Of a DNA stretch of 64,000 nucleotides, positions 16,231 to 51,510 are shown piece after piece. The notes under the pieces were generated by a model, which made no database searches, had not been told where the DNA came from, and saw only the letters and a list, made by a program, of their open reading frames with translations. Both the position numbers and the translations under genes were made by a program. Origin of the DNA: Bacteroides xylanisolvens XB1A (lineage in GTDB: Bacteria > Bacteroidota > Bacteroidia > Bacteroidales > Bacteroidaceae); the NCBI RefSeq assembly GCF_000210075.1, contig NC_021017.1, positions 1,633,557 through 1,697,556 on the forward strand, written 5' to 3'. Within the stretch, counting starts at the first letter, position 1; the number at the start of each line of letters is the position of its first letter.

Positions 16231-16381
16231 CATTTTTGTTTCTCCTTTCGTGAACAAAATAAAAATCTGAATGTTTTATATATGCAAATCGCCTGATGGC
16301 TACTTGTAGGTATGCGAATATATATAGGCTAGTGAATATGCCTCCCCGGCATAACAGGAAGATTGCATAGTAGTTTTGTCG

Positions 16382-16442: not shown

Positions 16443-16654
16443 CGTTTCTCTTGAATTCGTTAAGAGCACGTTATTTTATTTTCTTATCATATTATTGAAT
16501 AAAATCTTATCAATCCTGTGAACAAAATCCGGAAGTGTATGTTATTTATTGTGCAAATCACCTGATAAAGCTTCTTGTGTGTATGCGAATATAGATAAGT
16601 CAAGCAAGGTATGCCTCCCCGGCATGACAGGAAGATTGCATAGTAGTTTTGTCG

Positions 16655-20436: not shown

Positions 20437-20579
20437 ACTTTTTTCAATTAAGTACATACTTATTAATGTCTTCCCGTCTAATGGACATACTCCACCCGAC
20501 GAAAAACAGTATTTTTTTGATTTGGGGCTTAACAAGTGATACTCTTTCTCCTAATCCACGAGGAGAGGGGCGTCTTACA

Positions 20580-20760
20580 CAAAATGGCAGGTCTTCTGAC
20601 TGACTCTTGTCTTATTTGCCTTCCCGAATAACATCAGTGGCGTTAAATTAGTTCAATTATAAGACATTGAACAGAGTTTCACAGCAGCGGGACTGTCCGG
20701 GATTTACACCCGGTTCCCTATTAATCATCGTCCGTTGGATACGGATTCTGAACCATTTCG
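20580..20760 (-). promoter_or_regulatory. cobalamin riboswitch (B12 element)
   Basis: On the minus strand the sequence contains GGGAA-CCGGGTGTAAATCCCGG followed by ACAGTCCCGCTGCTGTGA, the conserved core of the cobalamin aptamer. It ends in the B12 box AGTCAGAAGACCTGCC (20586-20605 on the plus strand as GGCAGGTCTTCTGACT). It begins just after a -7 promoter and is followed by a 150-nt leader to the biotin carboxylase ATG. The leader has a hairpin CTCTCCT/AGGAGA and a small ATGTC/GACAT stem near the start. No clear U-tract terminator is visible, so translational control is possible. Confidence 0.88.
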
Positions 20761-20765
20761 GGGGG

Positions 20766-20773
20766 CAAAGATA
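20766..20773 (-). promoter_or_regulatory. promoter of the riboswitch-carboxylase transcript
   Basis: TATCTTTG on the minus strand, with transcription expected to start near 20760, immediately before the aptamer. No TTTG at the -33 position. Confidence 0.65.
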
Positions 20774-25698: not shown

Positions 25699-25936
25699 AT
25701 ATTGTGAATTTGATGGTTACCTTCTATTAGAAACAGCTGGCAGAGGAATTTGTTAGACCTCATAAACGCTCTTTAATAAGATAAGGTGTCCGATTGGAAA
25801 ACATTTGCATCTCCTCCAGTTTTATGCCCTGATTATTTAAGAAAACTGTTAAATGTTAATGCTTAACCGCTTATTTGTTAATACGGTTCAGATTCTATTA
25901 AACCATGTTATAAGATACGCTGCATTGGGCCGAAAA

Positions 25937-25967
25937 TTTGGAGATAACCGAAAAGTCCGTATCTTTG
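25937..25967 (+). promoter_or_regulatory. promoter of small RNA copy A
   Basis: TTTG (25937-25940), 19 bp, TATCTTTG (25960-25967): an exact Bacteroides -33/-7 promoter. Confidence 0.85.
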
Positions 25968-25970
25968 TAC

Positions 25971-26039
25971 TGTGTTTTTCATAGTATTAGATTTAAGGTT
26001 AACAAAAGATTGGCTGTCTGGGATAGATAGCCTTTTTTT
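25971..26039 (+). ncRNA. small RNA, copy A of a three-copy family
   Basis: The predicted ~70-nt transcript has a block TGTGTTTTTCATAGTATTAG followed by ATTTAAGGTTAACAAAAG. It then has a terminator hairpin GGCTGTCT / AGATAGCC (26012-26019 and 26025-26032) and seven T. The same promoter, block and a sequence-different but structurally equal hairpin occur at 27.2 and 49.2 kb. There is no coding potential. It may belong to the multicopy small-RNA families reported for Bacteroides (for example FopS); this assignment is from memory and unverified. Confidence 0.8.
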
Positions 26040-26070
26040 ATGCCTGTAAGTCAGATACGGATCAGGAAGA

Positions 26071-27009
26071 CTAAAACAACGAATATTGGTTATCCCGCAG
26101 ACTCTTCATCTCCCGTTCCTTTACTATATCATCTTCGGATAAATGACCGATGAGCAACGGCGAGTTTTTATCATGTTTCTTCATATTATATGCTGCTGTA
26201 TTATAATTACCTTTGATGGCATAGCAATAAACACATCCGTTCAGACAACTTTCATAAGTCCCGATATCAATACTTTCGATACAGTTGCAGATATTACGCT
26301 GGTTTTTATCCTTTTGAGCAAGGATAGGATAACCGGTGATCTTTTCAATCAGCCCTTTATCAATGCACAAGCCGCTGGGAATACCCAAATGTCTTAAATC
26401 TACCTTGACGGTACAAGTGTCCAGCTGTATACCGGGATAAATATCTATTGTCTTTTTAAAGGAGACGGCCATTTCTTCTATTTCCTCTTTGGTCAGCGGA
26501 TTGATGTTGAATGGTTGTATCGAGTTTCGGATATGGGGGTAATGATCTATAAATCCCAACATACATTTCGAGGTATGGTCTTTGAGTTCATGGGCAATCC
26601 GGGCGAATGCTTCCTGGTGGAAAGAAACGTTGTATTCCTCATTCGTCAGTATCGGATCATATCTCCAAATCATTTTTTCTCTGCCTATTTTGTCTGCCAG
26701 CTTTTTAAAGGTATCAATTCGTTTATCGATAGATGGCAAACGATTCTCCAATTTTTCTCCGTAAGGGTTGAGTGTAAATTGGAAGTAATAGTTGTAATCC
26801 TGTAATTTATCCAGCTGGTTAAGCATCGGGGCCGGGTTCTTGGTCCAGAATACGAAACAATCAACCACAGCAGGAGATAAGGAAATCCTGCTAATCATTT
26901 TCGGATGATAAGGATTGGGCACTAATACAAATCTTTCTTTTATCCGGTTGAAAAACCATTGAGAATAGAATGCCGGAATATCTGTCCGGCGGCTGGCACT
27001 GATTATCAT
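26071..27009 (-). CDS. DUF1848 protein with C-terminal cysteine cluster
   Basis: This 312-aa protein starts MIISASRRTDIPAFYSQWF, the signature of the DUF1848 family. It has a predicted TIM-barrel-like pattern (VDCFVFWTKNPAPM, YYFQFTLNPYGE, MIWRYDPIL). Near the C-terminus lies a dense cysteine group (ICNCIESIDIGTYESC followed by LNGCVYCYA) that includes CxxxCxxC, the spacing of a radical-SAM 4Fe-4S ligand set, although at the opposite end from classical enzymes. It probably binds an Fe-S cluster. Reaction unknown. A -7 element (TAACTTTG, 27021 to 27014) ends four bases before the ATG, suggesting a leaderless mRNA. It lies between two copies of the small RNA. Confidence 0.75.
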   Translation of the reverse strand: MIISASRRTDIPAFYSQWFFNRIKERFVLVPNPYHPKMISRISLSPAVVDCFVFWTKNPAPMLNQLDKLQDYNYYFQFTLNPYGEKLENRLPSIDKRIDTFKKLADKIGREKMIWRYDPILTNEEYNVSFHQEAFARIAHELKDHTSKCMLGFIDHYPHIRNSIQPFNINPLTKEEIEEMAVSFKKTIDIYPGIQLDTCTVKVDLRHLGIPSGLCIDKGLIEKITGYPILAQKDKNQRNICNCIESIDIGTYESCLNGCVYCYAIKGNYNTAAYNMKKHDKNSPLLIGHLSEDDIVKEREMKSLRDNQYSLF

Positions 27010-27013
27010 AGTT

Positions 27014-27021
27014 CAAAGTTA
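27014..27021 (-). promoter_or_regulatory. -7 element abutting the DUF1848 start codon
   Basis: TAACTTTG ends four bases before ATG 27009, so transcription would begin at or next to the start codon. No TTTG at -33. Confidence 0.5.
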
Positions 27022-27191
27022 CGAAAAAAAACAATGTCGTTTCCATGATTAGCTTTTTTTCTACTCTTACTTATCCGGGGAGCAACTTATGTGAATGAAT
27101 ATGTTAAATGTTAACGGATGAAGTCTGAAATGTTAATGCGATTCTCGGAGTATTAAACCCTGTTATAATATCGTCTGTTTAGGCGCTGAAA

Positions 27192-27222
27192 TTTGCTATT
27201 TATCTGAAATATGGTATCTTTG
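27192..27222 (+). promoter_or_regulatory. promoter of small RNA copy B
   Basis: TTTG (27192-27195), 19 bp, TATCTTTG (27215-27222). Confidence 0.85.
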
Positions 27223-27225
27223 TAC

Positions 27226-27297
27226 TGTGTTTTTTTCATAAGTATTAGATTTAAGGTTAACAAAAGATTGGTTGCTCGTGATGAGTAGCCATTTTTT
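27226..27297 (+). ncRNA. small RNA, copy B of a three-copy family
   Basis: It shares with copy A the block from TGTGTTTTTT through ATTTAAGGTTAACAAAAG, with a few extra bases (two T and one A) near CATAAG. The terminator hairpin is GGTTGCTC / GAGTAGCC (27270-27277 and 27283-27290) and a T-run. The stem sequence differs from copy A, while the single-stranded part is conserved. That points to selection on the single-stranded region. Confidence 0.8.
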
Positions 27298-27445
27298 GTT
27301 TTTATACACGTTGGTTGCTTATTCCTTAATCATCGTTAGCAGCATCTTAAATTTCTCCACTACACTTCTCGAATATGCATTGTTTGTCTATAACAAAAAA
27401 CGATTTTTATTGTTATAGTACGAAAGACTTAATAAACGAACCATT

Positions 27446-28315
27446 ATGAAGAAGAATATTTTATTTTTCGGAGCACTTGTAGGTGCTCTCTTGTTGGTTT
27501 CTTGTTCGGGAGGAAACAAGAAACAGGCTGCGTCCTCTGTCGCTTCGGAGGAATTGGACAATGCCAGTAAGGTGATAAACTATTATCATACATCGCTTAT
27601 CGTGTTGAGGCATGTAGCCAATGCGAAAGACATAAATGCAGTTTTGGGATATATGGAACAGACAGGAAAAGTTCCTGAAGTATCTCCGATTGCACCACCT
27701 GAAGTATCTGCCAGAGATACAGCGGAATTGATGGATCCGGGGGATTATTTTAATATAGAAGTCCGTCAGAATCTGAAGCAGAGTTATCGAGGACTTTTCA
27801 GTGCAAGGACGCAATTCTATGATAATTTTAATAAATTCCTCTCTTACAAGCAGGCAAAAGAGACTGCAAAGATCGGCAAGCTCCTCGACGAGAACTATCG
27901 GCTTAGTGTAGAAATGTCGGAATATAAACAAGTGATCTTTGATATTCTAAGCCCTCTGACAGAACAAGCTGAAAAAGAACTGCTTGCCGATGAACCGTTG
28001 AAAGATCAAATCATGGCCATGCGTAAGATGTCCGGCACCGTGCAAAGCATCATGAATCTCTATTCACGCAAACATGCGCTGGATGGTATGCGTATTGATA
28101 TGAAGATGGCCGAACTGAAGAAAGAACTCGAAGCTGCAAAGAAACTTCCCGCTGTCACAGGTTATGATGAAGAACAGAAGAATTATTATAGCTTCCTGAC
28201 TTCCGTAGAATCATTTATGAAAGATATGCAGAAAGCCAGAGATAAAGGTAGCTATTCCGACGAGGACTATAATGCGATATCGGAGGCCTACGAATACGGA
28301 CTTTCCGTTATCTAA
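27446..28315 (+). CDS. lipoprotein, helical (DUF3829-like)
   Basis: This 289-aa protein has a lipoprotein signal (MKKNILFFGALVGALLLVSC, then SGGNKK). Almost the entire mature part is amphipathic helix (DNASKVINYYHTSLIVLRH, SAKTQFYDNFNKF-like segments and MKMAELKKELEAAKKLP), a pattern I associate with DUF3829 lipoproteins of Bacteroides. No catalytic motif is visible. It starts about 150 bp after small RNA copy B, beyond that RNA's terminator, and is followed by its own terminator. It is likely monocistronic and periplasmic. Function unknown. Confidence 0.65.
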   Translation: MKKNILFFGALVGALLLVSCSGGNKKQAASSVASEELDNASKVINYYHTSLIVLRHVANAKDINAVLGYMEQTGKVPEVSPIAPPEVSARDTAELMDPGDYFNIEVRQNLKQSYRGLFSARTQFYDNFNKFLSYKQAKETAKIGKLLDENYRLSVEMSEYKQVIFDILSPLTEQAEKELLADEPLKDQIMAMRKMSGTVQSIMNLYSRKHALDGMRIDMKMAELKKELEAAKKLPAVTGYDEEQKNYYSFLTSVESFMKDMQKARDKGSYSDEDYNAISEAYEYGLSVI

Positions 28316-46079: not shown

Positions 46080-48914
46080 CTATCCTTTCCTCTTCAGCAA
46101 ATCTGTCGGACTTTCTCCAAACTGCTCTCTATAACATTTGGTAAAATAAGAAGGAGAGCTGAAACCGACTTCATAACCAATCTCTGCCACTGTCATATCC
46201 GACGAAGCAAGCAGGGAAGCAGCTTTCTTTAAACGAGCGATACGAAGCAATTCATTCGGAGAATAATTAGTCAAGGATTTTATTTTGCGATAGAGCTGCA
46301 CACGACTTAATCCCATATCCTTACCCAAATCTTCTACATTCAAATTTGAGTCTCCCATCTTTGCTTCAATCAAAGCCTTGAATTTTTCCACAAAATCTTT
46401 ATCCATATCACAGACATCCTCTTTCGCCAACGTTTGTCCGTCACCAAAGAACTGTTTCAGGCGGCGATGTGAATCTATCAGATTACGAACGCGTGCCAAC
46501 AGCAATTGCGAACTGAAGGGCTTGGAGATATAAGAATCCGCACCTCCGTCATATCCCTGAATCCGTTGTTCATCCAAAGAACAGGCTGTCAATAAGATGA
46601 CAGGGATATGGCAGGTTTGCAGTTCGCTTTTCAGCCGACGACAGCACTCTATTCCATCAATACCAGGCATCATCACATCAGAGATTATCAAGTCCGGAAC
46701 ATATTTCATTGCTTTGCGGATGCCCTCCGAACCGTCTGCTGCTTCAATTACAGTATAATCGGTATGGAGTAATCCGCGTACATACGAACGGATATCTGCA
46801 TTATCATCAATTACCAAAACGGAAGGTTTGGAAGAATCATAGCCTTTTTCCAGTTCCTCTTCTTCGGCAGCTAAAGTTCCATTCAGGTCGGAAGAGGCGG
46901 GAGATCCGGGAGAAGCAGGATTTAAAGGAACTGCAGAGATTGATGACTTTAGAGAATCTTCGGCCAGAATAGTTTCACAAGTCTGTACCGGTAAATCAAC
47001 GGTAAAAACAGTGCCCTGCTTTTCATCACTTTCCACAGAAATTGTACCTTTATGCAATTCAACGAAAGCTTTGACCAATGCAAGCCCGATTCCCGAACCG
47101 GCATGGTGCATGTCTATTTTATAAAAACGATCGAAAATGCTCCGAATATGTTCGGCGGAAATCATTGAACCGGTATTGGCAACAGTAAAACGAATCCAGC
47201 GAGTATCCTCTTTCGTTAAGGAAGATAAACGAACCGTTATCTTTCCATTTTCCGGTGTGAACTTGAACGCGTTGGAAAGCAGATTAAAATAAATACGTTC
47301 CAACTTTTCCATATCCGCCAATGTATGGTAATCCGTATCCGGCATATTATCAAAAGAGAAATGAATGTGTTTCTTCCGGGCCGCTGCAAGGAATGATTCG
47401 TTCCAGCCCTCAAAAGAGGAAAGAACATCTATCTGAACAGGTGTATATTCCATCTTACCGTTCTCGTATTTACGGAAATCCAGAATCTGATTGACAAGAC
47501 GTAAGAGGATATTCACGTTTCGTTGAATCAGCATCAACATTCGATGCTGATCTCCACTTAGTGTATGATCGGCCAATAAATGTTCTACCGGATCGGCAAC
47601 CAATGTAAGCGGAGTACGGAAATCGTGAGATATATTTGTGAAGAACACCAGTTTGGCATGCGTTGCCTCTTCCAGTTGATGAGAAAGCTGGATGAGCTGA
47701 TCCCGTTGCTCTTCCAGTTTGTCCCGCTGTTCTTCTAATTGGTCACGTTGTTCCTCTAACTTGTCCCGTTGCTCTTCCAGCTGTTTCTTCTGCTCGGAAA
47801 GTTCCTTATTCAGACGATTTTTAGCACGGAGAGATTTATAGACTACCAATAATAAGCCTGCCACCAATAGAAGAATAACCAAACCGCCATACATCACCAC
47901 CTGCTGTGTAGCAACCCGAGACAGATATCCGCCGATACGTCCGTTCAATGTTTCAATCTTCTGATCCAGTTCCGAGATGTGAGTTGTCTGAAGTTGCATG
48001 ACATGCGCATTCGTACGGTCGACCACCGCAGTGTTCATGACCGTTTCCCGGGGATAAGGCTTTTTCTCAAGGATATTCATTGCCAGTTGCATCACTTTGT
48101 CGCCATTGGTCGGATAAATAAAAGTAGCATTCAACACACTGTCGAGCACCATTTCCAATCCGTTGCCTTTGCCGGGGAGAGCATCGATACCGACAAAAAT
48201 CATTTCCTTCTCCCGTCCCACTTTCTTTGCAGCCTGATAAGCTCCCGGAGCGATACGGTCATTATGCGCATACACGGCGTCTATCTTCGGATGCCGACGG
48301 AGCATACTATCCATTTCCACTTCCGCCGGTTCACGCTCCCACGCAGCATCCGCTTTATCAATCAGTTTGATATCCGGAAAGTTACTGATAGCAGCCATAA
48401 ATCCTTGATGGCGTTCCATGGCAGGAGTTGAGCCACCCAGTCCAGTAAGTTCCACCACATTCCCTTTTCCTTTCAGGCTTGACGCAATATAATTGCCTAC
48501 CGCACGTCCTATTTCATAATTGTCGGCACCGATATAGGCAGTATATTTATCAGAAAGAATCTTCCGGTCTACCAGGATGACAGGTATTCCCTTTTGATAG
48601 GCTTCCTCTACAATCGGAGTCATGGGGGCCGCTTCGTTGGCAGAAATAATCAATAAGTCAACCCCTTCATCTATAAAATAATGAACGTCCTCCGCCTGTT
48701 TGCGATTATCATCCGCAGCCGACCGGATTTCAACCGATACCCCATCGTAGAACATTGCTTCGCGAAGAATTTCATCATTCATCTTATGCCGCCAGGAGTC
48801 ATCACTACATTGCGCCACCCCGATACGGAAGCGGTGTGTGTCCTGCCGACAAGCCGTCATGCCAAGAAGACAGAGCAAGACTGCTATCCACTTTGTATAT
48901 CCCATCATTCTCAT
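46080..48914 (-). CDS. hybrid two-component sensor of fructan locus (BT1754-like)
   Basis: This 944-aa protein begins with a lipoprotein-like signal (LLCLLGMTACRQD). A periplasmic sugar-binding domain (Peripla_BP_4) covers about 30-290 with DLLIISANEAAPMTPIV, YIGADNYEIGRAVGNYI and AHNDRIAPGAYQAA. A transmembrane segment lies near 335-357. A coiled coil with four LEEQRDK/Q heptads (about 370-400) leads to the HisKA H-box ISHDFRTPL (His near 431). The HATPase domain has NLLSNAFKFTPENG and GSGIGLALVKAF. A receiver has the acceptor Asp in ISDVMMPG (near 745). An AraC-type DNA-binding domain ends the chain. Architecture and neighbours match BT1754, the fructose-responsive sensor of the B. thetaiotaomicron fructan locus. 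Confidence 0.93.
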   Translation of the reverse strand: MRMMGYTKWIAVLLCLLGMTACRQDTHRFRIGVAQCSDDSWRHKMNDEILREAMFYDGVSVEIRSAADDNRKQAEDVHYFIDEGVDLLIISANEAAPMTPIVEEAYQKGIPVILVDRKILSDKYTAYIGADNYEIGRAVGNYIASSLKGKGNVVELTGLGGSTPAMERHQGFMAAISNFPDIKLIDKADAAWEREPAEVEMDSMLRRHPKIDAVYAHNDRIAPGAYQAAKKVGREKEMIFVGIDALPGKGNGLEMVLDSVLNATFIYPTNGDKVMQLAMNILEKKPYPRETVMNTAVVDRTNAHVMQLQTTHISELDQKIETLNGRIGGYLSRVATQQVVMYGGLVILLLVAGLLLVVYKSLRAKNRLNKELSEQKKQLEEQRDKLEEQRDQLEEQRDKLEEQRDQLIQLSHQLEEATHAKLVFFTNISHDFRTPLTLVADPVEHLLADHTLSGDQHRMLMLIQRNVNILLRLVNQILDFRKYENGKMEYTPVQIDVLSSFEGWNESFLAAARKKHIHFSFDNMPDTDYHTLADMEKLERIYFNLLSNAFKFTPENGKITVRLSSLTKEDTRWIRFTVANTGSMISAEHIRSIFDRFYKIDMHHAGSGIGLALVKAFVELHKGTISVESDEKQGTVFTVDLPVQTCETILAEDSLKSSISAVPLNPASPGSPASSDLNGTLAAEEEELEKGYDSSKPSVLVIDDNADIRSYVRGLLHTDYTVIEAADGSEGIRKAMKYVPDLIISDVMMPGIDGIECCRRLKSELQTCHIPVILLTACSLDEQRIQGYDGGADSYISKPFSSQLLLARVRNLIDSHRRLKQFFGDGQTLAKEDVCDMDKDFVEKFKALIEAKMGDSNLNVEDLGKDMGLSRVQLYRKIKSLTNYSPNELLRIARLKKAASLLASSDMTVAEIGYEVGFSSPSYFTKCYREQFGESPTDLLKRKG
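47695..47785. repeat. 21-bp tandem repeats in the sensor coiled coil
   Basis: The DNA coding for the EEQRDKL/EEQRDQL heptads consists of about four near-identical 21-bp units (GTTGCTCTTCCAG-like), differing mainly at synonymous sites. Such repeats can change copy number by slippage. Confidence 0.65.
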
Positions 48915-48957
48915 TTTTTTCGTATTTCTTTCTATGACCCAAATGGACGATTGAGAA

Positions 48958-48965
48958 CAAAAATA
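48958..48965 (-). promoter_or_regulatory. -7 element upstream of the sensor gene
   Basis: TATTTTTG on the minus strand, about 44 bp before ATG 48914. Confidence 0.45.
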
Positions 48966-49133
48966 AGAAATAAAACTGTGAGTATGCTATCTATCACCCA
49001 ATTATTCTCATCATTACCCTCCAAAGAAATGCAAAACAGTTCCCAATATTCAACCGGAAACTATTAACAAAAGTATAAAGCGTAAGACAAACACTCAATA
49101 AATGTTATAAAACATCTCTTTTTATTTGGATTA

Positions 49134-49164
49134 TTTGCAGATTTAACAGAAGTCCGTATCTTTG
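49134..49164 (+). promoter_or_regulatory. promoter of small RNA copy C
   Basis: TTTG (49134-49137), 19 bp, TATCTTTG (49157-49164). Confidence 0.85.
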
Positions 49165-49167
49165 CAA

Positions 49168-49232
49168 TGTGTTTTTCATAGTATTAGATTTAAGGTTAAC
49201 AAAGGTTGGAGCAAGGCGTTGCTCCTTTTTTT
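49168..49232 (+). ncRNA. small RNA, copy C of a three-copy family
   Basis: It contains the shared block TGTGTTTTTCATAGTATTAG followed by ATTTAAGGTTAACAAA. The terminator hairpin GGAGCAA / TTGCTCC (49208-49214 and 49219-49225) has a T7 tail, and its stem is unrelated in sequence to those of copies A and B. It lies in the 383-bp gap between the sensor gene and the MORN-repeat gene and points towards the 3' end of the latter. Confidence 0.8.
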
Positions 49233-49297
49233 ATGTCTGTACGGCTACGCCTTGCACTCTGTATAACACCTACAACCTATATGACAGTTGATAAGAC

Positions 49298-50416
49298 CTA
49301 GTTTTCATCCCATTCCCTTTCCAGTTTGCCATCAATGGTATAAAGTTTCCAACGTCCTACCCGGTGACCGTTCTTATATTCTCCACATTCGCGGAGCTTG
49401 TTATTCTTCACATAACGAGATTCAAAAGGACCGTTTTGCCGTCCGTTGACGTATGTAGAAGTTTCCCAATAATCAAAGCGATTGTCCACCACTAACTGGC
49501 GTGCTTTTCCGTGCAGTCTGCCAAACTGATAGGTTGCCTCGTACTTCAATTCGCCATTTTTCAAGTCATATTCACGATAGATTCCGTCCTTGCGGTCATT
49601 TTTCAGATAATATTCTTTGGTACGCATCCCTGTCTCACCACTGTATGAAACGTGCAGGCCTTCTTCTTTTCCATTCAGATAAGTTTCAATTACAATGGTA
49701 TCGCCACTCTCTGCAATCTCTGTCCAACGACCGTTCTTCTGCCCATTCTTGTAACTACCCAATACATGAGGAGCTCCAAAAGTAAAGATGGACGAATATT
49801 CTCCATCCTTCAACCCTTCGTTATTATAATAAACCGTTTCGTATAGTTCATAAGTACCCTTCATGAAAGTATATTGTTTCCCTACTTGTTTACCATCCTT
49901 ATAATTATGGTCCATCCGCAGAGTTCCGTCATAATCATACGACAAATGTTTTCCATCCTCCTTGCCCATCCGGTAGTTTTTCTCACTTTCTATTTTTCCG
50001 TCAGTAAAGAACGTTTTGCTCGTACCGTTCAACTTTCCTTCCTTATAAGACTTTTCTTCTTTCAGTTTACCGTCAAACTTAGAATAGATTTTAAATAAGC
50101 CATTCTTCCGTCCATCTTTGTAGACGCCTTCATTTATCAGAATGTTATCCAAATGCTCTTCATATTTGCCATCATAAAAACCATCTTTAAAAGAGGCCAG
50201 TATATACGCAGAGTGATAACCGTCAATGATACGATGTTCGCCGTTGAGCGGTTTTTCCGTCATCAAGTCTCGGTACAAGAATCTTCCGTCGCCTACATTA
50301 ACGACAGATACCTGATCGATTTTAAACTCTTTTTGTGCTAATGAGGGAAGGGCTATGCATAGAAGCAAAAATACATTCCAGCATTTCGAGCGGAATAAAA
50401 TAGAAACGTGTTTCAT
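49298..50416 (-). CDS. secreted MORN/YwqK-repeat protein
   Basis: This 372-aa protein has a signal peptide (VFLLLCIALPSLAQ) and about ten tandem beta-hairpin repeats of the form Y-K-x-G-K-x-x-G. Examples are YKEGKLNGTSKTFF, YRMGKEDGKHLSYDYDG, YKDGKQVGKQYTF, YKNGQKNGRWTEI and YKNGHRVGRWKLY. It belongs to the YwqK-type proteins and probably folds as a long periplasmic beta-meander. It sits between the sensor and the fructokinase and has its own -7 element, so membership in the fructan regulon is uncertain. No toxin partner is visible. Function unknown. Confidence 0.8.
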   Translation of the reverse strand: MKHVSILFRSKCWNVFLLLCIALPSLAQKEFKIDQVSVVNVGDGRFLYRDLMTEKPLNGEHRIIDGYHSAYILASFKDGFYDGKYEEHLDNILINEGVYKDGRKNGLFKIYSKFDGKLKEEKSYKEGKLNGTSKTFFTDGKIESEKNYRMGKEDGKHLSYDYDGTLRMDHNYKDGKQVGKQYTFMKGTYELYETVYYNNEGLKDGEYSSIFTFGAPHVLGSYKNGQKNGRWTEIAESGDTIVIETYLNGKEEGLHVSYSGETGMRTKEYYLKNDRKDGIYREYDLKNGELKYEATYQFGRLHGKARQLVVDNRFDYWETSTYVNGRQNGPFESRYVKNNKLRECGEYKNGHRVGRWKLYTIDGKLEREWDEN

Positions 50417-50457
50417 AATGTGACATTCTCTTTTTAGTTATTATCTTGTGAATCGTG

Positions 50458-50465
50458 CAAAGATA
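50458..50465 (-). promoter_or_regulatory. promoter of the MORN-repeat gene
   Basis: TATCTTTG on the minus strand, about 42 bp before ATG 50416. Confidence 0.6.
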
Positions 50466-50535
50466 TACAATTAGCTAAAAATCCAACAATAAAAAGAGAA
50501 GAAAAGAGGTGATATCCGAAAAGATTTGAATTAAA

Positions 50536-50577
50536 AAAATCCTCCTTACTACAACATACCGTAGTAAGAAGGATTTT
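50536..50577 (-). terminator. terminator of the fructan operon (after fructokinase)
   Basis: Stem AAAATCCT-CTTACTAC / GTAGTAAG-AGGATTTT with an 8-nt loop, followed on the minus strand by a T-run. It separates fructokinase from the MORN-repeat gene. Confidence 0.85.
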
Positions 50578-50622
50578 CACTTTTGGATTCTTTTCGTCCC
50601 TACATTTACATCAATAGAGAAA

Positions 50623-51510
50623 TTACATCAGCCTGTCTTTCAAAACCTGCGGAAGTTCGGGCATTGCACCGCTTTGCGTGCAGACATAAGCAGAAACTTC
50701 AACGGCAAGTTTGTGAGCTTCTGGTACCGGTTTTCCATTGAGAATGGAAGCACAGAAAGCAGCCGTAAAGGAATCACCTGCCCCCACCGTATCGGCAACC
50801 GGAACTCTCGGCGTCTCCTGGAAAGAGACAACACCCGGGGTAAACACATAACTGCCATTAATTCCGCAAGTCAGAATCAACATCTTCAGGTTGTATTTTG
50901 CCAACAGAATCCAACATTTATCCTGTAAGTCGATGCCGGGATAGCCAAACATACGGCTGATGGTCACCAGTTCTTCGTCGTTTATCTTCAGAATGTTGCA
51001 ACGGCGGAAAGATTCGCGCAATACCTCTTTGGTGTAGAAGTCCTGGCGGAGATTAATATCAAAGATTTTCAGTTGTCCGTCTATGTCGGGCATCGTATCC
51101 AGAAAACGGTTGATAGTGGCACGGCTCACTTCATTACGTTGAGCCAGGGAACCGAAGCAAACGGCACGCGTACTCAATGCCAAACGTTTCAGTTCATCCG
51201 TGAAAGGTATGTTATCCCATGCCACGCCTTCTTTGATTTCGTAACAAGGCACTCCCTCGTTATCCAGTGTTACCTGTACCGTACCGGTAGGATAATCCAC
51301 TTGTTCAATCTGCGTTTTCAGTTTCTTCTCGTTGAATACGTATAGAATCTCGTCTCCCAACTCATCCTTGCCCACGGCACTCACCACGCGACTATCAAAA
51401 CCAAACTGTGATACATGATAGGCAAAGTTTGCCGGAGCACCACCTATTTTCTTTCCTTCGGGCAACACATCCCAAAGTGCTTCGCCCATTCCTACGATTA
51501 TATTATTCAT
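50623..51510 (-). CDS. fructokinase (PfkB/ribokinase family)
   Basis: This 295-aa cytosolic sugar kinase has an N-terminus typical of PfkB kinases, with the di-glycine sugar-binding loop GGAPANFAYHVSQFG. The ATP/anion-hole signature DTVGAGDSFTAAF holds the catalytic Asp. In this position, after a GH32 and an MFS permease, it should phosphorylate fructose released from fructans. It corresponds to BT1757 in B. thetaiotaomicron by gene order. A -7 element at 51533-51540 suggests it can also be transcribed independently of the permease. Confidence 0.92.
   Translation of the reverse strand: MNNIIVGMGEALWDVLPEGKKIGGAPANFAYHVSQFGFDSRVVSAVGKDELGDEILYVFNEKKLKTQIEQVDYPTGTVQVTLDNEGVPCYEIKEGVAWDNIPFTDELKRLALSTRAVCFGSLAQRNEVSRATINRFLDTMPDIDGQLKIFDINLRQDFYTKEVLRESFRRCNILKINDEELVTISRMFGYPGIDLQDKCWILLAKYNLKMLILTCGINGSYVFTPGVVSFQETPRVPVADTVGAGDSFTAAFCASILNGKPVPEAHKLAVEVSAYVCTQSGAMPELPQVLKDRLM

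Follow-up and report, generated by a model that had tools for sequence, protein, structure and literature searches.

FopS is a small RNA described in Bacteroides thetaiotaomicron, in which 14 paralogues are transcribed from sigma-ABfr promoters under bile-salt induction, and as far as the accessible text of that paper goes it base-pairs with the mRNA of susC BT_3983, at the site where translation begins, and with other PUL mRNAs, an action that RbpB antagonises and relieves (PMC11697453). FopS helps set which glycan importers gut Bacteroides produce, and its inducer was left by its authors, in the same accessible text, as an "unknown transcriptional regulator" (PMC11697453). GibS, as described in the available part of its report, has the R1 seed in common with FopS and differs from it in being longer (145 nt), in its PM2 promoter type and in carrying a second seed, R2 (PMC7366714). 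Cur (BT4338), the master regulator of carbon limitation, has the published binding consensus wwwTATGTTnTAnAACATAwww (PMC3878776, PMC6989115), and it activates the small RNA MasB, so that at least one sRNA is Cur-activated (accessible parts of PMC3878776, PMC6989115, PMC10994844, and PMC10294740). BTnc140, BTnc195, and BTnc364, three sRNAs of carbon limitation encoded near Cur sites, were tested in the study of Roc (PMC10294740, accessible text), and a partial FopS–Cur link may lie in those data. The available text of the four Cur publications does not name FopS as a Cur target, whereas a Cur consensus is present at many of the FopS promoters reported here, as predicted sites, and in 12 of 14 passages of the FopS paper, Cur appears only where colonisation effects are compared (PMC11697453). 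A FopS–Cur link was not found in our literature search, which did not reach preprints or most subscription papers, and the conserved upstream site of many FopS copies, in its match to the Cur consensus, looks new and is the candidate novelty of the predictions below.

The window, by which we mean the whole stretch of 64,000 nucleotides analysed, contains two plus-strand RNA genes of about 70 nt each, with 1255 bp from start to start, and in a whole-window search both exceed the gathering score of 56 of the FopS covariance model, RF04319. A third copy, absent from the initial annotation, also lies on the plus strand. The features are as follows.

25898-25913, plus strand: upstream element of copy 1, TTAA-N4-TGTTATAA, a Cur-type box of which only the left half is kept, 9/14 consensus positions
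25937-25967, plus strand: promoter of copy 1, from the sequence, with TTTG at 25937-25940, 19 nt, and TATCTTTG at 25960-25967
25972-26042, plus strand: copy 1, FopS sRNA, RF04319 82.3 bits (E 1.4e-10), terminator stem at 26012-26032 from the terminator scan
26071-27009, minus strand: DUF1848 gene (PF08902, E 6e-103), a neighbour outside the RNA system
27153-27168, plus strand: upstream element of copy 2, TTAA-N4-TGTTATAA, again with only the left half of the box kept, 7/14 Cur positions
27192-27222, plus strand: promoter of copy 2, from the sequence, with TTTG at 27192-27195, 19 nt, and TATCTTTG at 27215-27222
27227-27300, plus strand: copy 2, FopS sRNA, RF04319 63.5 bits (E 6.2e-7), terminator stem at 27269-27291 from the terminator scan
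49095-49116, plus strand: upstream element of copy 3, with the palindrome ATGTTATAAAACAT at 49102-49115, 12/14 Cur positions
49134-49164, plus strand: promoter of copy 3, from the sequence, with TTTG, 19 nt, and TATCTTTG
49169-49235, plus strand: copy 3, FopS sRNA, RF04319 77.8 bits

The initial annotation had predicted two RNA genes of about 70 nt with their own terminators, and these are borne out by the RF04319 matches and by an intrinsic-terminator scan of 25850-27450, which returned 3 sites versus 1.3 (sd 1.0) in shuffles, with copies 1 and 2 accounting for two of them; as had been claimed, the two stems differ in sequence and are still predicted to pair, and the DUF1848 gene is the only gene found between the copies. 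In the case of the promoters, which had been called identical, the TTTG and TATCTTTG boxes and the 19-nt spacing are indeed identical but the spacer sequences differ, and the block said to be shared extends over 57 nt at 84% identity, with GTATCTTTGTACTGTGTTTTT the same in both, although the bodies are not identical, copy 2 having two additional Ts and one additional A near its 5′ end. Both copies are real as sequence features, but a count of two was too low, there being three in the window and 13 above the cut-off genome-wide, and the third window copy and the conserved upstream element had both been overlooked. Copy 2 lies only 7.5 bits over the gathering score and has its insertions in the 5′ part, so its activity could differ.

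All three window copies have a sigma-ABfr promoter (-33 TTTG, -7 TAnnTTTG), and the conserved body contains the published seed region R1/R1′ (PMC11697453, accessible text). The genome total of 13 RF04319 matches above the gathering score fits the multicopy state of FopS, which is about 12-15 per Bacteroides genome, and the 14-mer GATTTAAGGTTAAC occurs at 13 places in the genome, with 0 in the reversed control. Two further genome matches fall below the threshold at 50.6 and 48.5 bits, and by eye the first looks like a divergent FopS and the second (L028) like GibS. On these grounds, both predicted genes are members of the published FopS small-RNA family, and the RNA itself is already known; a multicopy trans-acting family had been proposed with FopS as the comparison, and the foreseen match to a characterised family, which removes the novelty only, is what occurred. 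The window genes have in common with the published FopS the covariance-model family, the promoter type, the seed, the terminator design, and the multicopy state, and they differ in that the available published description contains neither the upstream element nor a Cur link, and in that they are known from sequence (PMC11697453). For the FopS-family explanation as a whole, including the SusC pairing and a conserved upstream site for which we infer Cur as the reader, we estimate a probability of about 0.92. The FopS copies would probably be additive, as gene dosage.

There are three same-strand tandem FopS pairs in the genome, spaced 2478, 1713, and, in the window, 1258 bp from core to core, and together with the many copies per genome they are what could favour an explanation in which the repeats are not RNA genes at all and represent repetitive or mobile DNA, or a pair of stray terminators. 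This is scarcely credible, because FopS is a published RNA family verified by northern (PMC11697453, accessible text) and because a DUF1848-flanking pair is found again in another Bacteroides genome, 1259 bp core to core (L232), which looks like old synteny. The genes inside the other two pairs of this genome are a GDSL lipase-like start (L234) and a clostripain-type peptidase (L235), and among eight pairs in other genomes (L226-L233) a GDSL-like gene start is enclosed in seven by eye and DUF1848 in L232, while the copies of a ninth pair (L236), separated by 254 bp, enclose no ORF of 120 aa. In the pairs L226-L231, L233, and L234 the enclosed gene runs on the opposite strand; Pfam identifies that of L226 as a GDSL lipase, and the L234 sequence includes a stretch reading N. 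The idea that tandem pairs are mobile cassettes was rejected on account of the same enclosed genes across genomes, which we read as conserved synteny. Copy 3 has as its neighbours, by reading, a hybrid two-component regulator whose sensor is sugar-binding-like (46080-48914, minus strand) and, on its other side, a 372-aa gene followed by a PfkB-like sugar kinase (50623-51510, minus strand). By eye, we take these surroundings (46080-51510) to resemble a fructan utilisation locus.

Each gene would be expressed from its sigma-ABfr type promoter and ended by its own intrinsic terminator, as read from the sequence, and the single-stranded body of the RNA would pair with the translation starts of SusC-type importers and block them until RbpB relieves the block. 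Block and relief are published for B. thetaiotaomicron, and here we infer them from homology and from pairing that is better than chance. In this genome the 5′-terminal 42 nt of copy 1 pair with SusC start regions at a mean of -17.8 kcal/mol (n=27) versus -14.1 kcal/mol for other ORF starts (n=65; p = 1.7e-6), these controls being mechanical ORFs, and among 100 shuffled seeds none matched the SusC-start pairing of copy 1. The SusC sample comes from 30 loci fetched of 101 SusC-type matches, of which three were without a usable start. A near-exact complement of the seed before ATGAAA occurs at 16 places in the genome, 14 of which are reversed FopS genes and two elsewhere, so that target pairing would be partial, and the exact complement was rejected as a target finder for the same 14 of 16 matches. 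The genome encodes three proteins of the RRM_1 class, to which RbpB belongs. Two sub-threshold RF04319 matches in this genome (L031, L033) are by eye opposite-strand SusC-type leaders, and they are likely to be FopS targets and not members, which a loose search would confuse.

At many FopS promoters TTAA-N4-TGTTATAA precedes the -33 box by exactly 23 nt, and it is often extended into ATGTTnTAnAACAT, the Cur consensus as published. When the 13 copies of this genome are read in register, the element or a close variant is present in 11 (exact TGTTATAA in nine, one change in two) and was not found at the remaining two, L017 and L025. The pattern of TGTTATAA plus promoter has nine matches in the genome, all at FopS genes, and none in the reversed genome, and in a family-wide search that counted matches wherever located it occurs in 62 of 301 genomes, including 22/22 drawn from the genus, with reversed controls giving 0 or 1 per genome among the matches listed. 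The palindrome ATGTTNTANAACAT has seven places in this genome, five of them at FopS promoters, versus one when reversed, and the looser ATGTTN4AACAT has 19, six at FopS, versus nine. The palindrome search preceded knowledge of the published Cur consensus.

Across copies, position numbering took the RNA's first G, a predicted start site, as its origin, and the Bacteroides set comprised 95 distinct copies from 14 genomes. Each had to have an exact core and 130 nt or more of upstream sequence, and repeats were excluded; window copy 2, with its one additional A, L027, and L028 fall outside the set. In many copies the element continues as ATGTTATAAAACAT, in agreement with the Cur consensus as given in the accessible sources. 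At least 12 of the 14 Cur positions are matched in 42 of the 95 copies, versus 0.30 on average in dinucleotide-shuffled sequence and 0/95 farther upstream; 55 copies match at least 11/14, with the match starting at -68 in 43 of these, and TGTTATA stands at the expected place in 61 copies, leaving 34 without it. In the order-wide set at least 12/14 is reached in 47/122 copies versus 0.30, and the strict promoter pattern fits only 50/123; a TGTTATA-type box is present in 22 of these 50, and in 19 its distance is 23 nt.

Since the copies are paralogous and some promoters are nearly identical, the upstream likeness could be a functionless leftover of recent duplication of gene plus flank, an explanation we regard as very improbable in view of what is retained once copies at least 70% alike are removed. 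In this reduced set 12 of 33 copies still match at least 12/14 positions, and the TTAA, left arm, and middle of the element keep 0.76-0.87 bits per position, compared with 0.28 in the gap to the promoter and about 0.2 in the farther flanks; in other families, moreover, the palindrome is found at a different constant position, overlapping the -33 region. Conservation shows TTAA-N4-TGTTATAA, at its fixed distance and extended to the Cur palindrome in many members, to be a conserved regulatory site, as predicted from these alignments.

Cur would be the factor that reads this site, least certainly at copies 1 and 2. In its fuller form the proposal, which we rate just short of an even chance, is that FopS is the small-RNA arm of Cur, which would occupy a fixed site centred near -60 at many fopS promoters and, when the preferred sugar is lost, raise the SusC-braking sRNAs together, with the Prevotellaceae rewired to an FNR-type regulator. 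If it is true, no other group of near-consensus Cur sites in this genome would be as large as that of the FopS promoters, and Cur control would connect the master transcriptional switch of sugar limitation with the post-transcriptional braking of SusC transporters. In E. coli, the class I position of CRP lies close to such a centre.

A serious contender, somewhat further below even odds, keeps FopS but assigns the element to a different reader, such as a Crp-family protein distinct from Cur or the bile-responsive regulator suggested by the FopS authors. Another factor could read the element because its most constant part, TTAA-N4-TGTTATAA, falls short of the whole Cur palindrome, the right arm of which is weakly conserved (0.33 bits per position in the reduced set). 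Consistent with such a factor are the scores of copies 1 and 2 (9/14 and 7/14), the presence of four Crp-type proteins over the cut-off in the genome, and the FopS paper itself, which in its accessible part reports bile-salt induction and in whose main text "starvation" is absent (PMC11697453). Against it, the complete palindrome corresponds to the Cur consensus in print, as far as the sources were available, and many copies carry it at the same fixed position. The fusA2 site, with 11/14 Cur positions, lies about 6 nt farther from its -7 region than the site at FopS does when TAATTTG is taken as the -7 (hand count), a point in favour of the other factor; an exact TAnnTTTG was not found behind the fusA2 site, and fusA2 was rejected as a geometry control, its spacing not being confirmed. 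The reading in which Cur is the regulator also has a candidate cur gene in this genome (L209), with a Crp-type domain, a neighbour read as glutamine synthetase, and an 11/14 site just before the first ATG. BT4338 presumably has a glutamine synthetase neighbour as well. By eye this site overlaps a -7-like TACTTTTG, and the overlap could suit repression. Given the fixed-position Cur-type box on many fopS promoters, the question of what switches FopS on is directly testable.

FopS loci titled Dysgonomonas, Muribaculaceae, Prevotella, Barnesiella, and Odoribacter are among the matches listed (80 of 119 loci), with taxon labels assigned from record titles for those 80. TTGAY-N4-RTCAA, which we take to be an FNR-type box, starts at -88 to -85 in 24/121 copies and 0 in shuffles, and among the matches listed the box near -86 occurs in 17/23 Prevotellaceae-titled loci (L053, L075, L077, and L099 among them), 0/15 Bacteroides-titled loci, and 1/44 others. 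A Cur-type palindrome of at least 11/14 over the -33 region shows a different distribution among the matches listed, with 17/44 of the others, 2/15 Bacteroides-titled, and 0/23 Prevotellaceae-titled loci; a box in that position may serve activation or, as at the candidate cur gene, repression. In these comparisons the predicted sRNA body is constant across clades while the control region changes.

The exact FopS core is also present in 34 viral contigs that form 12 sequence clusters, from which at most two members per cluster were inspected (19 contigs). A predicted hairpin follows the core in all 19, and a -7 box was not seen in the inspected members of seven clusters. The core lies between a weakly spanin-like gene, itself preceded by an endolysin gene, and a terminase gene in L185, downstream of a terminase-type gene in L186, beside endolysin and methyltransferase genes in L174 and L200 (one cluster), and, in L181 and L184, downstream of terminase and portal genes and upstream of a ParA-like gene, the inspected members of that last cluster having a -7 box and no Cur box. 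This gene order (L181, L184, L185, L186, L174) suggests that phage-borne FopS-like RNAs exist, and a Caudovirales phage with a FopS sequence is already noted in the accessible text of the RbpB paper (PMC11697453). That phages would use such an RNA for lowering SusC receptors is speculation. Host flanks may also account for the viral contigs whose promoters are of Bacteroides type (L170-L172, L175, L177, L178, L180, L190, and L195-L197). In phage BX-TP2 the FopS and its near flanks match by eye the 5469 kb locus of the present genome, which makes host DNA at the end of the record its probable origin, and it was rejected as proof of a phage-borne FopS. The notion that some viral copies follow a tRNA was likewise rejected, ARAGORN having found no tRNA in L169 or L194.

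Finally, the window contains other RNA elements, namely two copies of the Bacteroides-1 RNA (RF01694) at 16282-16362 and 16551-16635, 269 bp from start to start, and a cobalamin riboswitch (RF00174, 96.1 bits) at 20569-20772 on the minus strand.
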